Virus record (IMG/VR): IMGVR_UViG_3300010150_000111
Location: 1 to 28,132 of that record
Length of the DNA: 28,132 nt
Strand: one strand, 5' to 3'
From: a virus
The notes below the pieces were generated by a model. That model had not been told where the DNA came from. It searched no databases and saw only the letters and a list, made by a program, of their open reading frames with translations. Both the position numbers and the translations under genes were made by a program. This document shows positions 20,087 through 28,132 of this stretch, piece after piece (position 1 is the first letter of the stretch; every line of letters starts with the position of its first letter).

Positions 20087-20115
20087 TAGTTGTTCTCCTA
20101 TATCTATATATAGTG

Positions 20116-20547
20116 ATGGCATATAAATCAATATACAAACCAAAGAATCCCGAAAAATATAATGGGAATATAGACAATATTGTATGTAGATCTTCTTGGG
20201 AAAGAAAAGTCTGTATATATTTAGACGAAAACAATAATGTCATACAATGGGGGTCTGAAGAATTATACATCCCATATTTTTCTCCTATAGATAATAAATG
20301 GCACAAATATTACCCAGATTTTTTAGCAAAAATAAAAGATAACTCAAATAACATAAAAAAGTATATATTGGAAGTTAAACCACACAAACAGACAATACAA
20401 CCCAAAGAAAGAAAAAACAAAAGAACCTATTTAAATGAAATGAAAACATTTACTATAAATACCTGTAAGTGGGAAGCTACAGAAAAATTCTGCGATGAAC
20501 ATGGGTGGATTTTCAAACTTTTAACAGAAAAGGACATTTTCAGATGA
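20116..20547 (+). CDS. 4: Head completion protein gp4
   Basis: The 143-residue protein matches T4 gp4 (150 aa) almost block by block. It has PEKYNGNIDNIVCRSSWERKVCIYLDENNNVIQWGSEEL near the N-terminus (T4 PHKYKGDVTTIVYRSGWERAYMNFLDQNKNVLEWASEEF), then PDFLAKIKD and YILEVKPHKQTIQP, and KWEATEKFCDEHGWIFKLLTEKDIF at the end. gp4 seals the filled head before tail joining and has a nuclease-like fold. A D-x-n-E-x-K pattern is visible in PDF...LEVKP. The start is ATG 20116, with a GTG at 20113 as an alternative. It is 29 nt from the divergent gp48 start. The end overlaps the next gene by 4 nt (ATGA). Confidence 0.94.
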   Translation: MAYKSIYKPKNPEKYNGNIDNIVCRSSWERKVCIYLDENNNVIQWGSEELYIPYFSPIDNKWHKYYPDFLAKIKDNSNNIKKYILEVKPHKQTIQPKERKNKRTYLNEMKTFTINTCKWEATEKFCDEHGWIFKLLTEKDIFR

Positions 20548-21170
20548 GTCTATCCATAATAAAAAATAGTTTTTTAAATGGTGCGAATATACTAAAAACA
20601 AATAGATTTTTAGTTGATATGACATTGTTTAATCCTAAAAAAAATAAATTTGTAAGAATGACAAACGAACCAGTTGTTCGTGTAGGTGCATCTTCGCTTT
20701 CGTTGATAACTAGAGATTATGTTAATCAAAACATACCAATCAAAGTTCCCAGAAAATTTCAATCAGCATATCAAGTTGAAATGACATTTTATCTCAGAGA
20801 ATCACTAAATGTTTTCAATGAACTAACAAATTTAGTTAAACAGTATGGTGGACAAAGATTTTTACAAGCAGGTCCAGGTGGTCAATTTAATAGACCCCTA
20901 AGTTATACACAAAATAGCATGTATAATACAGCAATAAGAAATAACACAGCAAAATTAAAACTTATAACTGATGGTGCTACAAATGCTGAAATTGATCCAC
21001 GAACAGGAGAAGTAAATCACATTGAATATTTATCATTTTACCCAGATAATATATTACCAATATCACTAGAGTCTACAGGTCCTACTACTTTAGCAACATT
21101 TAGCGTAACTTTCGGATTTGCAACAGAAAAAACATCAAACGAGCTCGATTTAGGTCCAATCTTCGAATAG
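20544..21170 (+). CDS. Tail tube-like protein, probable gp54 tube initiator
   Basis: The ATG at 20544 overlaps the gp4 stop, with AAAAGGA a little upstream, giving 208 residues. The protein has a tube-protein-like pattern. NRFLVDMTLFNP lies near the N-terminus and IPIKVPRKFQSAYQVEMTFYLRESLNVFNELTNLV in the middle. The C-terminus DNILPISLESTGPTTLATFSVTFGFATEK resembles T4 gp54 GCIPISVSAPELSYDGDNQITTFDVTFAY. gp54 is the platform on which tail tube polymerisation starts. T4 gp54 is 320 residues, so this is shorter. The gene lies next to gp26-like, and gp48 is divergent, whereas in T4 gp48 and gp54 are adjacent. A second tube or tail-completion role cannot be excluded. Confidence 0.6.
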   Translation: MSLSIIKNSFLNGANILKTNRFLVDMTLFNPKKNKFVRMTNEPVVRVGASSLSLITRDYVNQNIPIKVPRKFQSAYQVEMTFYLRESLNVFNELTNLVKQYGGQRFLQAGPGGQFNRPLSYTQNSMYNTAIRNNTAKLKLITDGATNAEIDPRTGEVNHIEYLSFYPDNILPISLESTGPTTLATFSVTFGFATEKTSNELDLGPIFE

Positions 21171-21178
21171 GATATTTT

Positions 21179-21901
21179 ATGATAATAGATTTAATGAAAA
21201 AACAAGTTCAAACGTTCAAGACAAAACTACCTGTATCCAAAAAAACTGTACAATTCAGACCTCTGTTAGTAAAAGAAGAAAAGCTAATAACAGAAATAAA
21301 CGAACTTGATAGTTCTATAGAAAACAGACTATCTAATCTAAGTAAATTAGTAGATTCTTGTTGTGTTGATATAGATTCGAAAAATTTAAACATGTATGAT
21401 TTTCAACATATGTTAATCGAATTAAGAAAACGATCATTTTCAGAAATAAGCGAGTTGAATATAACGTGTCCTGTAACATCAGAAAAAATAAATATCAATT
21501 TAGATTTAAATTCTGGTGTATCAAATAAAACCGATACTGAGTATCTTGAAATAGAATTAAATTCTATATTTCTAAAATTTAAAAAACCTACTATTTCAGA
21601 CTTGATTCAATCTGAATGTTTACCAAAAACATATACAGACTTAATAAATCTTATGGGTATTTGTTTGGTTGACATTGAAACAGATAAACAAAAATTAAAT
21701 ATGTCATCTATTAGCATAAAAGAAAAAATGGAAAGTTTAGAGTATTTACCAAAATCAAGTTTTGAAAAAATCAAAAATTTTATTCTTAATACCTTTGTTG
21801 AATTTAAAATTCACTATGTTACATCGGATGGAATAACAAGAACCATAGAAATCAAGGACTTCGTAACATTTTTAAAATTCTTTTTGGTTATACTACGCTA
21901 A
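21179..21901 (+). CDS. gp26-like baseplate/tail assembly protein, zero-frame product
   Basis: The 240-residue protein resembles T4 gp26-type proteins. LPVSKKTVQFRPLLVKEEKLI (17 to 37) is followed by two helical blocks with SNLSKLVDSCC and LNMYDFQHMLIELRKRSFSE (about 70 to 90), and then LNITCPV. T4 gp26 is a hub assembly factor. The arrangement here suggests a tail assembly chaperone. Near the 3' end the mRNA carries a T TTA AAA slippery heptamer (21871 to 21877) and an 11 bp hairpin whose loop contains the stop TAA. A -1 shift would therefore replace the last 7 residues with a 62-residue extension. AGGA overlaps the end of the upstream gene and lies 6 nt before the start. Confidence 0.7.
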   Translation: MIIDLMKKQVQTFKTKLPVSKKTVQFRPLLVKEEKLITEINELDSSIENRLSNLSKLVDSCCVDIDSKNLNMYDFQHMLIELRKRSFSEISELNITCPVTSEKININLDLNSGVSNKTDTEYLEIELNSIFLKFKKPTISDLIQSECLPKTYTDLINLMGICLVDIETDKQKLNMSSISIKEKMESLEYLPKSSFEKIKNFILNTFVEFKIHYVTSDGITRTIEIKDFVTFLKFFLVILR

Positions 21902-21913
21902 TTAGTATAACCA
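21871..21913 (+). promoter_or_regulatory. Programmed -1 ribosomal frameshift signal
   Basis: TTTAAAA at 21871 to 21877 is in the T TTA AAA phase of the gp26-like frame (X XXY YYZ). After 7 nt (TTCTTTT) comes a perfect 11 bp hairpin: TGGTTATACTA (21885 to 21895) pairs with TAGTATAACCA (21903 to 21913), loop CGCTAAT. The zero-frame stop TAA (21899 to 21901) lies in the loop. On the minus strand the hairpin is followed by A-rich, not T-rich, sequence, so it is not a terminator there. Confidence 0.8.
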
Positions 21914-22065
21914 CCGATATGTACAGAATAGTAGAAGAACATAATTACACATCAATCGAAATAGAAAACATGTTAGTCTGGGAAAAAGATATAATCATAG
22001 TAATACTCAATAATGAAATAGAAAAACAAAACCTATTAAACGAACAACTTTCTAGAACTGGATAA
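21877..22065 (+). CDS. -1 frameshift extension of the gp26-like protein (GT-type tail)
   Basis: This frame is open from the slippery heptamer to TAA at 22063 to 22065. After the zero-frame residue 233 it adds 62 residues, giving a fusion of 295. The extension begins ILFGYTTLISITTDMYRIVE and contains EIENMLVWEKDIIIVIL, then a charged helix. The pattern of an aromatic helix followed by a Met-x-x-Trp-Glu-x-Asp-Ile motif looks like the C-terminal part of longer gp26-type proteins (from memory). This supports translation of the frame. A possible independent start is ATG 21919 (48 residues), but it has no Shine-Dalgarno. The frame is too short to be reported by many gene callers. Confidence 0.75.
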   Translation: MLFGYTTLISITTDMYRIVEEHNYTSIEIENMLVWEKDIIIVILNNEIEKQNLLNEQLSRTG

Positions 22066-22069
22066 TCTC

Positions 22070-22570
22070 ATGCTACCCAAACTATCATATTTAGATTTTT
22101 CTGCTCCACTTACACCAGAGTATGATGCTATAGAAACTCAAGATGATATTAATGATGATACAGATTTTATAGGGCAATTTGATTTTGGTATGGTAAATTC
22201 TCAATCTAATGTTGATATTAACATGATCCAAAACGCAACATTAAATCCCTATGATATGTTTAATAACAATATGAGATCAGGTGCTGGAGTTTCAAATAGA
22301 ATAAATTCAATACCAAGGCCACAGGTAAGATCTGCTTCATCTGCAGTTACCAATAACTCCCCACAAGTTTACCAAGAAAACGATATAAATTTAGAAAATA
22401 AAAGAAATTACGAAAAAGCTCAGTCAATATCAGATTCATCTGATATTTCGAATCTAGGTATGTCTACTAGTAAATCAAATACAGCGAGACCTAGAACTAA
22501 TCTATACGACCCGCTGAATTCAATTTCCGAACTAAATAATAGTCAGGTATATCTCAGAGACTATACCTAA
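22070..22570 (+). CDS. Asn/Ser-rich protein of unknown function
   Basis: The 166-residue protein is not recognised. The N-terminus has an LPKLSYLDFSAP motif and an acidic patch (about 19 to 33). The remainder is rich in Asn, Ser, Asp and Gln, and lacks hydrophobic core segments, so it is probably disordered. Start ATG 22070 lies 4 nt after the frameshift-extension stop, with only a weak GGA upstream, so translational coupling is likely. In lambda-like and P2-like phages the gene after the frameshifted chaperone is the tape measure. This protein is far too short for that, although it could be a tape-measure partner or a virion protein. It converges with gp32. Confidence 0.6.
   Translation: MLPKLSYLDFSAPLTPEYDAIETQDDINDDTDFIGQFDFGMVNSQSNVDINMIQNATLNPYDMFNNNMRSGAGVSNRINSIPRPQVRSASSAVTNNSPQVYQENDINLENKRNYEKAQSISDSSDISNLGMSTSKSNTARPRTNLYDPLNSISELNNSQVYLRDYT
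22545..22568. terminator. Possible bidirectional hairpin between convergent genes
   Basis: AGGTATA (22545 to 22551) pairs with TATACCT (22562 to 22568), and TCT with AGA can extend the stem across a one-base bulge. It spans the last codons of the plus-strand gene, immediately beyond the gp32 stop on the minus strand. No clear U-tract follows on either side, so termination is uncertain. Confidence 0.3.
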
Positions 22571-25124: not shown

Positions 25125-26344
25125 CCATCAACAACGAAACAAATTATGATAGTAGCACACCAAAGCTACACAAAACTGGTTCTTTGTATGGATTAAAATT
25201 CTACGACGAATTGGAAGATATATTTGATGTAGATCAAAATTTTACATGCATTCCAAATATATCACTATTAGACAATAACTCTAAAATTATTATAGATTTT
25301 AGTTCTTGTAGAAACAGTGAAGATAATAATTTTCTTAATAGTATAATTTCTGGACTTACTGCATCACCGGGAGGCACTTCCGGAATTACATTAAGTAATG
25401 CTAAACATTTAGATTCAGATAAAAATGAAACTAGTGATTTGAGTGGTTATTTTACTTACAATAAACACTACACCGGTGTAATTGTAGCAGATGTTGTTAG
25501 TATAAATTCAGTTCAAGATTACGATAAATTATATAAAAATTCAAATTTTATTGAAATACCAGATTTTAAATTTTCGGTTTCCTTAACATCATCGTCAAAA
25601 CAAAATATAGTAAAAAACAATTTTGGGACAAACATTACACCAAGTTTTTCTTCATTGGGTGCAGTAAAAAATGATTATGTTCAATTTTTAAATGGAACAA
25701 ATAAAGGTATTATGTATAAAATAGAAGGAATTTCTGTAGACTCTAACCTACATGAAATAATTTCACTAACTGCAGGAAATTCATATTCATATTCTGAAAT
25801 CCAAGAAGAAGATAGATTTAACTTAGAAACAAAAATTAATGTTTATAAAACAGAAAATTCTTCTTCGTATCAAAGATTGTTTAATCAAAGTGACTCCAAT
25901 CTTGTTTCATATAATAGTTTAGTAACTAAAATATTAGTTACCACAACAACAGATTCTACAGGTAGTAAATTTTTATTAGACCAACAGTTTATATCTCCAG
26001 GTATAAGATTAACCAAAGATAGTTTATATCTTTTCGATTTAACAGGAGTTGCTTTGGAAAATGGAGAAACCTTCTTATTAAGTTCAACTCCAGATGGTAC
26101 GCATGGAGGTGGTATTAATTATACTAAAGATGTAACATTATACTCCGGCAAAGGATTGGTATTTAACCCCAAATCAAGTAGGTCCTTATTTTATTATTCC
26201 GCGAAAACCAAAAATATGGGAAATATAATTAACATAGTTTCGGATTCTACCGGACCTACTACTGCAGTAGGAACATATAACTTTTTAGTTTCTAATAATA
26301 ACTCAGGTTTTTACCAGTCGTCTAACACACAAAATTCATATTAA
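25121..26344 (+). CDS. Virion-like protein with a degenerate cupredoxin-like domain
   Basis: The 407-residue protein is not recognised over most of its length. Residues about 282 to 372 match a domain frequent in marine phage structural proteins, as remembered: a strand with 'G-H-P-F-x-x-S-T', then DGTHGGG, and a YYYC-x-x-H-x-x-M-G loop. Here the segments are GETFLLSS, DGTHGGG and YYSAKTKNMG. The putative copper ligands His and Cys are replaced (E316, S360, T363) while M366 remains. The fold is therefore probably structural. The upstream gene overlaps by 4 nt. The 3' end overlaps the convergent minus-strand gene by 4 nt. Confidence 0.55.
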   Translation: MTINNETNYDSSTPKLHKTGSLYGLKFYDELEDIFDVDQNFTCIPNISLLDNNSKIIIDFSSCRNSEDNNFLNSIISGLTASPGGTSGITLSNAKHLDSDKNETSDLSGYFTYNKHYTGVIVADVVSINSVQDYDKLYKNSNFIEIPDFKFSVSLTSSSKQNIVKNNFGTNITPSFSSLGAVKNDYVQFLNGTNKGIMYKIEGISVDSNLHEIISLTAGNSYSYSEIQEEDRFNLETKINVYKTENSSSYQRLFNQSDSNLVSYNSLVTKILVTTTTDSTGSKFLLDQQFISPGIRLTKDSLYLFDLTGVALENGETFLLSSTPDGTHGGGINYTKDVTLYSGKGLVFNPKSSRSLFYYSAKTKNMGNIINIVSDSTGPTTAVGTYNFLVSNNNSGFYQSSNTQNSY

Positions 26345-26739
26345 ATTCTGTCCGGCGGATATGAGGGAATATTTTCCCCCATATCGTTCCACCCATAAAC
26401 TTTCCATACATCACCCACCTGAAAATCTTCGGGTGCTATGACTCTCGCCCACCAAACTCCATTGCCATATTGCTTAGTGCCATCTGGTAGTTGAACTTGT
26501 TCATAACCCGACACATTGGCAGAATCCGTTGCCAACTGGTGAATGATTTCTCCATCACGATATATCTCAACAACCCATTTTGCATTCGGGTTTGCCTCGA
26601 CCCATTCATCAACAGTCACTTCACCATCAGATAGATTAACAGATTGGTATCCATAAGTAGATGCTGAAATGGCGGCTGGTCCTCCTGATCCCGTGTCGTC
26701 TGCGACATCGAAATCACCTTTGACTAGATCAACCGCCAT
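26341..26739 (-). CDS. Unknown protein in GC-richer cassette
   Basis: The 132-residue protein is acidic and probably beta-rich. It has YQSVNLSDGEVTVDEWVEAN (about 31 to 50), KWVVEIYRDGEIIHQL and VWWARVIAPEDFQVGDVWKVYGW (about 95 to 117). No family is recognised. It overlaps the end of the dockerin-containing gene by 16 nt, so the two are probably translated together. Its GC content and codon choice (GCC, GTC, CTC) agree with the two genes upstream and differ from the AT-rich phage genes on its left. No signal peptide is visible. Confidence 0.6.
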   Translation of the reverse strand: MAVDLVKGDFDVADDTGSGGPAAISASTYGYQSVNLSDGEVTVDEWVEANPNAKWVVEIYRDGEIIHQLATDSANVSGYEQVQLPDGTKQYGNGVWWARVIAPEDFQVGDVWKVYGWNDMGENIPSYPPDRI

Positions 26740-27554
26740 TCCGCTTTTGGGACGATGAAATGTCCTTCTCGACCATTGTCGTTCGGAGTTTCATTCATCG
26801 TCAGAAGCAGAATGTGATCAGCAGTTTCCCACAGAGGATTGAACTCCTCTGTGATCTCGATAGGATCATCAGGTGGATCGGTGGGGTCAACATCACCCCC
26901 ACCGTTCGCAGCCTCGATCTGATCGTTCCAAGAATCCGAGATGGCTTGGAATAGAAGTTCCATGTCCAACATATTTACTACACCATCTTTGTTTAGATCG
27001 TACAGAGGATTGTCAGTTCCGAGTGCGCCAATCAGGAGTGTCTGATCAAGTTCATCGACCCAACCATCACCATTGAAGTCTGCGAGTTGTCCTTCAAGAC
27101 GAGTTACGATATCCCACATAACTGGAATTTCGATGTTTTCACCTGCTTCTACACGCTGACTCACTACGGTAATGATTCTCTTTGTGCTGGCTTCCCAACA
27201 AACCAAACCAGAATACTGTTCTGGAATGATCGGAATGATACCATCACTGAGTTGAACAGTAAGACGAATGCTCATGGTACGAGCGACCGATGTACTATTT
27301 GTCCATTCGACTGTACCGTCTAGACCAAACGGTCCAACATAATCACCCATTGGTCGTTCATAGACTGCAACTACCTGTCGATCCCCTACATCACCTTCGG
27401 AAATGGTGAGGATAGATTCTACGCCCTCGTCACTCAACTGAGGGAGTCTGGTCGTTGTAGTTGGTTTCGGCATTCGTGGAGGACAATCAATGTCCTGTGC
27501 AAATGCACTATTACTTGCCAGTACGGCTGCTAGCGTTAATGATCTCAGCATCAT
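26724..27554 (-). CDS. Secreted protein with dockerin-type repeat pair
   Basis: The 276-residue protein has a Sec-type signal peptide. Residues 1 to 19 contain basic R4, a hydrophobic LTLAAVLA core, and an AFA cleavage site before Q20. A beta-rich part follows (about 45 to 150, with two Cys at 24 and 119). Residues 157 to 206 hold two calcium-loop repeats. The first is D159-N161-D163-G164-V166-D167-D170 and the second is D186-N188-D190-G191-N194-D197. Each is followed by a Leu-rich helix, as in type I dockerins. An acidic Pro linker (about 220 to 232) leads to the C-terminus. Dockerins bind cohesins in bacterial surface and cellulosome proteins. Their role in a phage is unknown. GGGAG lies 6 nt before the start. 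It overlaps the holin-like gene by 44 nt. Confidence 0.75.
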   Translation of the reverse strand: MMLRSLTLAAVLASNSAFAQDIDCPPRMPKPTTTTRLPQLSDEGVESILTISEGDVGDRQVVAVYERPMGDYVGPFGLDGTVEWTNSTSVARTMSIRLTVQLSDGIIPIIPEQYSGLVCWEASTKRIITVVSQRVEAGENIEIPVMWDIVTRLEGQLADFNGDGWVDELDQTLLIGALGTDNPLYDLNKDGVVNMLDMELLFQAISDSWNDQIEAANGGGDVDPTDPPDDPIEITEEFNPLWETADHILLLTMNETPNDNGREGHFIVPKAEWRLI

Positions 27555-27783
27555 CGGCTGCTCCCTTCGTTGATACCTTTACCCATGCTCGACTCCAAAT
27601 GTAACTACACATCACTGCACCTGCGACACTCCACATGGCGATCTCTCCACCCTCTGTGATGGGCCAGTTCTTAAACCAACCCGTACCTTCAAGAAGCGGA
27701 AGTCCACCAATTCCAATTGCTGCCCAAAACTCGGTGGACTTCACACCTGGCTTTGGATCTGTTGTTGTCTTTACTGTAGCCAT
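27511..27783 (-). CDS. Holin-like small membrane protein
   Basis: The 90-residue protein opens with a polar, Pro-rich part (TTTDPKPGVKSTEFW). It then has a short hydrophobic segment, FWAAIGIGGLPLL (19 to 31), and a second, IAMWSVAGAVMCSYIWSRAWV (about 48 to 68). A charged C-terminus follows. The KPGxKxTEFW opening is reminiscent of a small membrane-protein family found in marine phages and bacteria, often labelled holin-like. A holin would make the membrane lesion that starts lysis. No endolysin is adjacent, so the call is tentative. The start has AAAGGAG 7 nt upstream. The 3' end overlaps the signal-peptide region of the next gene by 44 nt in another frame. Confidence 0.5.
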   Translation of the reverse strand: MATVKTTTDPKPGVKSTEFWAAIGIGGLPLLEGTGWFKNWPITEGGEIAMWSVAGAVMCSYIWSRAWVKVSTKGAADDAEIINASSRTGK

Positions 27784-27816
27784 ATTATATCTCCTTTATA
27801 TTATATATTAAAGATT

Positions 27817-28132
27817 CTAAGGAACTCGATAATCTTCTGATGCCCTTGCGACAGAATCTTGTTCTCTATCTGAAGTTATATCTGATATTGGATACGCAGC
27901 AGGCGTAGTAACAGACTCTTGTGGGTATCTCAAATGCCAATGTGGATCCCAATTCTGCATCAAATTTCTTACTTTGGGAATAGTTAATCCACCCGACCAT
28001 CGATATCCCACACGAGCCCCATCACTTGCGGCAGTTAAGTACTGGTTTTTAATTTCTAGATTAGAATAATCCATGACTAAAGATGAACTGTTACCAATAT
28101 TGTCTGAATTTGTAGTATACCCAGTTGGATTG
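27817..28132 (-). CDS. Unknown protein, C-terminal part (5' end beyond right edge)
   Basis: The reading frame is open from TAA at 27817 to the window edge, about 104 codons. An ATG at 28074 gives 85 residues but has no Shine-Dalgarno, and the 19 codons upstream of it are free of stops, so the gene probably starts outside the window. The sequence has a KNQYLTAASDGARVGYRWSGG segment, an NWDPHWHLRYP motif and an acidic, Arg-containing C-terminus. No family is recognised. It is AT-rich like the virion genes and lies 33 nt upstream of the holin-like gene. Confidence 0.5.
   Translation of the reverse strand, partial: NPTGYTTNSDNIGNSSSLVMDYSNLEIKNQYLTAASDGARVGYRWSGGLTIPKVRNLMQNWDPHWHLRYPQESVTTPAAYPISDITSDREQDSVARASEDYRVP

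Follow-up and report, generated by a model that had tools for sequence, protein, structure and literature searches.

The window analysed here is the whole stretch of DNA at positions 1-28,132 (28,132 nt) of the IMG/VR virus record IMGVR_UViG_3300010150_000111. It belongs to a marine T4-like phage and carries a T4-superfamily structural module with portal (phrog_213 at 1e-195), sheath, tube and terminase genes and a gp32-like protein. The open reading frames (ORFs) and signals that concern us are the following.

20505-21170, plus strand: ORF upstream of gp26, no significant family match
21179-21901, plus strand: gp26-like ORF, predicted short form (TAC-N) of 240 aa; PF12322 T4_baseplate, E 1.2e-28; phrog_150, E 3.3e-29
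21871-21877, plus strand: slippery heptamer T TTA AAA, in phase X XXY YYZ
21878-21884, plus strand: spacer, 7 nt
21885-21895, plus strand: 5' arm of the stem, TGGTTATACTA, 11 bp
21896-21902, plus strand: hairpin loop, 7 nt, which holds the TAA
21899-21901, plus strand: zero-frame stop TAA, inside the hairpin loop
21903-21913, plus strand: 3' arm of the stem, TAGTATAACCA, 11 bp
21877-22065, plus strand: -1 extension (TAC-C, gp51-type domain), 62 codons plus a stop at 22063-22065; base 21877 is read twice
22070-22570, plus strand: ORF of 166 aa in the slot of the relatives' tape measure, no family match

The preliminary description of this DNA had reported the heptamer, the 7-nt spacer, the 11-bp hairpin whose loop holds the stop, and the 62-codon -1 frame with coordinates that proved right to the base. 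The two arms of the stem pair at 11 of 11 bases, and a shift on the heptamer would give a long form (TAC-NC) of 233 + 62 = 295 aa. The predicted fold has a minimum free energy of -12.2 kcal/mol and a z score of -4.6, and none of 200 shuffles was equally stable. It is the sole perfect stem of at least 11 bp with a loop of 3-10 nt in the 28-kb window; shuffled windows average 0.25. A role as a terminator is ruled out by the absence of a downstream U-run. The window ORFs that are 120 aa or longer contain 94 in-phase heptamers, and just two of these open into a -1 frame of at least 30 codons that reaches more than 60 nt beyond the stop: the site at 21871 and a CCCAAAA at 26751 on the minus strand.

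The second of these sites lies in phase 25 nt before the stop of an ORF for a dockerin-domain protein (26724-27554, minus strand), and its -1 frame enters a 132-aa ORF at 26341-26739. Since these two ORFs overlap with an ATG, ordinary coupling at the overlap is likelier there than frameshifting. The dockerin gene is part of a segment, 26341-28132, with a GC content of 42-45%, compared with about 31% for most of the window, and this segment is possibly an acquired one or a chimeric join.

By itself the 62-residue extension gives a match to phrog_634 (gp51, 'baseplate hub assembly catalyst') at E 9e-9, the outcome of the HMM comparison with gp51-type proteins that had been proposed for it. Adding the extension to the short form raises the phrog_150 score from 103.2 to 110.6 bits and carries the alignment from profile position 234 to position 280 of 282. 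When the fusion was searched against phage records with tblastn, matches came in two pieces across two annotated genes, gp26 and gp51. By these comparisons the -1 extension is a real, coding protein domain. No second gp26/gp51 homologue that might serve as a separate in-frame long-form gene was found within the 28,132-nt window, which is a genome fragment.

In T4 the corresponding proteins are encoded separately. T4 gp26 (208 aa) and gp51 (249 aa) both belong to PF12322 (8.8e-64 and 3.9e-52), and the phrog_634 end is present in gp51 and absent from gp26. Aligned with the fusions, T4 gp26 ends near the junction and T4 gp51 reads through it in frame. Sequence comparison thus makes T4 gp26 and gp51 paralogues of the short and long forms, with gp51 as the long form carrying the phrog_634 end; in the window one gene and its -1 frame take their place. 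The preliminary description had seen in the extension a domain that other gp26-type proteins encode in frame. That it is a domain was borne out; its in-frame counterpart is T4 gp51, not gp26. In T4 and four relatives genes 26 and 51 are divergent, gene 26 has no extension in its -1 frame in any of the five, and in four of the five its last 60 nt contain no in-phase heptamer. Since gp26 and gp51 are paralogous and the -1 extension is absent from gene 26, two separate genes supply the two forms in T4-type phages. The abstract of a 2022 study by Vladimirov, Gautam and Davidson is said to describe conserved frameshifting in several groups of T4-like phages, with T4 using genes 26 and 51.

Conservation was assessed in two systematic scans. 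The first set of loci was fetched with the zero-frame gp26 body only; the window belongs to it, as do seven phage loci that include HMM seeds. In all 166 loci with a visible stop the extension is read in the -1 frame, with not a single +1 or in-frame case, and a correctly phased X XXY YYZ lies no more than 45 nt from the stop. The second set is independent of gp26, because its bait was the neighbouring gp32-like gene; a heptamer was sought in the last 60 nt of gp26. Each of the 68 loci with gp26 had both the -1 extension and an in-phase heptamer, and in the closest relatives of this set the alignments of body and extension join at the identical base. The two scans combined give the extension in the -1 frame in 234 of 234 loci. 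Other baits were less productive: a single-sequence scan with P0001 and a scan with the ORF upstream of gp26 recovered no relatives. The sample consists mainly of marine T4-like phages, because retrieval was biased towards loci of the highest similarity.

A non-redundant set of 176 loci was obtained by adding five outgroups (Vibrio nt-1, Rhizobium RHph_I1_9, Desulfovibrio 7757, Pelagibacter HTVC008M and S-PM2) and clustering at 90% identity; in the outgroups the heptamer was sought individually in all five, and three had their -1 frame checked visually. An in-phase slippery heptamer lies near the end of gp26 in all 176 loci: TTTTTTC in 137, TTTTTTT in 26, TTTTTTA in 10, TTTTTTG in two and TTTAAAA in one. 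T TTT TTN is therefore present in 175 of 176, and T TTA AAA as the sole heptamer occurs only in the window. The T TTT TTN of the relatives ends at the end point of the window heptamer or 3 nt before it. As controls, in-phase heptamers were found at 35 of 513 other gene ends of the same loci, a heptamer with an open -1 frame of 45 codons at one of 513, and Phe-Phe is encoded elsewhere as T TTT TTN in 54 of 608 cases. The heptamer, its phase and the -1 domain, whose conservation had been put forward as a check on the signal, are thus kept in all relatives with a visible gene end. Three Ackermannviridae loci (L254-L256) carry the -1-frame domain without a standard XXXYYYZ heptamer, two of them with a TAATG stop/start overlap, and may use another mechanism.

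The gp26 of the window is about 20-47% identical to its relatives and represents a distant lineage. Its nearest relatives, which form the window's clade (L171-L180, L209, L224 and L225; gp26 37-46% identical), read A AAT TTT TTA AAA, or have G or C in the codon just past the T run or beyond that codon. In the window the sequence is ACA TTT TTA AAA, so that only T TTA AAA remains. The 11-bp hairpin is absent from these nearest relatives, which fold only weakly downstream (z about -2.8 to +1.1). Among cyanophage-type sequences, 68 of which were compared, a stem of 11 bp starts about 5 nt after the heptamer. In this stem 89.8% of cells pair; sliding the partner lowers the figure to 24-45%. Both sides are changed in 31 cells, compared with 11.4 in shuffles. 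Column pair 21-35 is UA in 31 sequences, GC in 15 and AU in 11; in the -1 frame it is a synonymous alanine position with a residue varying among Glu, Val and Ala. As judged from the sequences, coding alone is a poor explanation of this covariation. The mean fold z score is -2.85 downstream of the slip site compared with -0.08 upstream. The cyanophage stem is counted as a named structure because RNAalifold gave only 3 pairs on the cyanophage alignment. Stems in the gp32-anchored lineage pair in a different register, and no single stem fits every lineage. The evidence for a downstream stimulatory structure is accordingly of two kinds: in the window the 11-bp stem itself, and in the cyanophage relatives, and only there, covariation. 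Of the conserved signal that had been predicted, the stem-loop covaries in cyanophages, and the exact heptamer and hairpin are peculiar to the window.

A different account of the locus treats the -1 ORF as a small gene of its own, translated by re-initiation or from its own start after the gp26 stop. The databases annotate the extension in this way, many cyanophage records calling it 'gp51', and the Vibrio Ackermannviridae loci L254 and L255 have an overlapping TAATG and lack an XXXYYYZ heptamer. This account is nevertheless improbable. From the upstream -1 stop to the ninth codon past the heptamer there is no ATG, GTG or TTG in 47 of 176 loci, and ATG is absent from this stretch in 67 of 176. 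Residues just past the heptamer are conserved (His at position 6, 0.91; Leu at position 9, 0.92). The first ATG in the -1 frame of the window is codon 15, where no Shine-Dalgarno-like motif was seen, and re-initiation would conserve neither the heptamer nor the stem. More improbable still is slippage of RNA polymerase on the T/A run to yield a fused frame. Most relatives do have runs of six T, but the run in the window is only five T followed by four A, every run sits in the X XXY YYZ phase of ribosomal slippage, and the covarying stems begin about 5-7 nt downstream, which fits ribosome stalling. A decayed gene or an assembly error that split a single long ORF has nothing in its favour except the split itself and is refuted by the relatives, since the identical split occurs in 234 of 234 scanned loci and in the cultured phages P-SSM2, S-PM2, phiM12, nt-1 and HTVC008M, which leaves it a negligible chance.

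The gp26-like gene is therefore best read as the tail assembly chaperone gene of the T4 superfamily, from which -1 frameshifting would give a short form of 240 aa and a long form of 295 aa. We put the probability of this reading, which comes from sequence analysis, at about 0.93. It was advanced in the preliminary description and is supported by the conservation, the cyanophage covariation and the match of the extension to the gp51 family. We infer the slippage itself, its rate and the chaperone role as follows. The majority of ribosomes would stop at the gp26 TAA, producing TAC-N. A minority would stall at the hairpin while T TTA AAA is occupied by tRNA-Leu and tRNA-Lys, the tRNAs would re-pair one base back on TTT AAA, and the ribosome would then melt the hairpin and translate 62 further codons to produce TAC-NC. 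By analogy with lambda G/GT and with T4 hub genetics, several copies of TAC-N and a few of TAC-NC would keep the tape measure protein assembly-competent, the C-terminal gp51-type domain would bring in tube or hub components, and both forms would be absent from the finished virion.

Lambda G/GT and P2 E/E' are likewise pairs of chaperones, one short and one long, each pair encoded by a single gene with a -1 shift close to where the short frame ends; no sequence relation between them and the window protein was seen. An AlphaFold2 model of the 240-aa short form had a pLDDT of 93, and a search of a viral structure library with it returned gp26-type baseplate hub proteins. Among solved structures, the fold search placed the HK97 tail assembly chaperone 2ob9 second (E 0.84, probability 0.63) and also listed 3fgx and 3klu; all matches were above E 0.001, so the match to 2ob9 is not significant and the modelled likeness to the HK97 chaperone fold is suggestive only. 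A sequence search of solved structures with a 78-row profile gave no relevant match.

The slot upstream of gp26 is annotated as tail tube in phiM12, nt-1 and HTVC008M. Between the gp48-like and tube-like genes of the window lies an ORF with a TnsA-like endonuclease N-terminal domain (20113-20547; PF08722, 4.4e-22), and TnsA-like ORFs are found at the same place in two relatives (G001 and G004). Directly 3' of the chaperone, 54 related loci outside the window's clade have a tape-measure-like ORF of 381-976 aa. Within the clade the same slot holds an ORF of 134-220 aa, mostly disordered-looking, and the 166-aa ORF next to the window chaperone is no recognisable tape measure. Neither the 58 kb of G001 nor the 37 kb of G004 showed a recognisable large tape-measure-like ORF; the tape-measure profile search also missed a genome with a known 393-aa candidate, and its silence proves nothing. 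Tail length follows a rule of about 0.15 nm per tape-measure residue, and phages of the window's clade possibly have very short tails. A tentative and rather doubtful extension of these observations is that the frameshifted pair of this clade serves a drastically shortened tape measure (134-220 aa) in contractile tails that by this rule would measure only about 20-35 nm, the signal having changed from T TTT TTN, the ancestral form, to T TTA AAA and gained a strong hairpin, which might retune the ratio of short to long form.

The tail assembly chaperones of T4-like phages were identified by Vladimirov, Gautam and Davidson (Virology 566:9-15, 2022). As cited in the PRFect paper, that work describes T4-like phages with one short and one long gene (PMC10885494), and as cited in the Adele paper, polyT slip signals in T4-like chaperone genes (PMC12846349). 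Because both the chaperones and frameshifting were described in 2022, according to these citing papers, a frameshifted T4-like chaperone is not new in kind (PMC10885494; PMC12846349). As far as the Adele paper describes them, the T4-like TAC-N/TAC-NC share with the window the gp26-family gene, the gp51-type -1 extension and a polyT-type slip site near the 3' end (PMC12846349). The window differs in having T TTA AAA for T TTT TTN, followed by an 11-bp hairpin whose loop contains the stop. What is new here is the divergent lineage, the shifted heptamer, the RNA covariation and, as a side result, the clade with no more than a 134-220 aa ORF in the tape-measure slot.

A review in 2010 called gp51 essential and of unknown function, and listed gp26 and gp51 as hub assembly chaperones (PMC3004832). 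In the same year cyanophage gp51 was described as being without its first ~200 residues, with no mention of frameshifting (Sullivan et al., 2010; PMC3037559). That short 'gp51' corresponds to the same -1 extension. Public cyanophage records (e.g., S-CAM1, L008, and S-RSM4, L006) have the extension annotated as a stand-alone gp51, internally started, or missed. The loci compared here show the small 'gp51' genes of cyanophages and other marine T4-like phages to be predicted -1 frameshift tails of gp26, and for this reason the first ~200 residues seemed to be missing. This result supports a chaperone role for T4 gp51, and the annotation of the core gp26/gp51 gene pair is to be corrected across hundreds of genomes.
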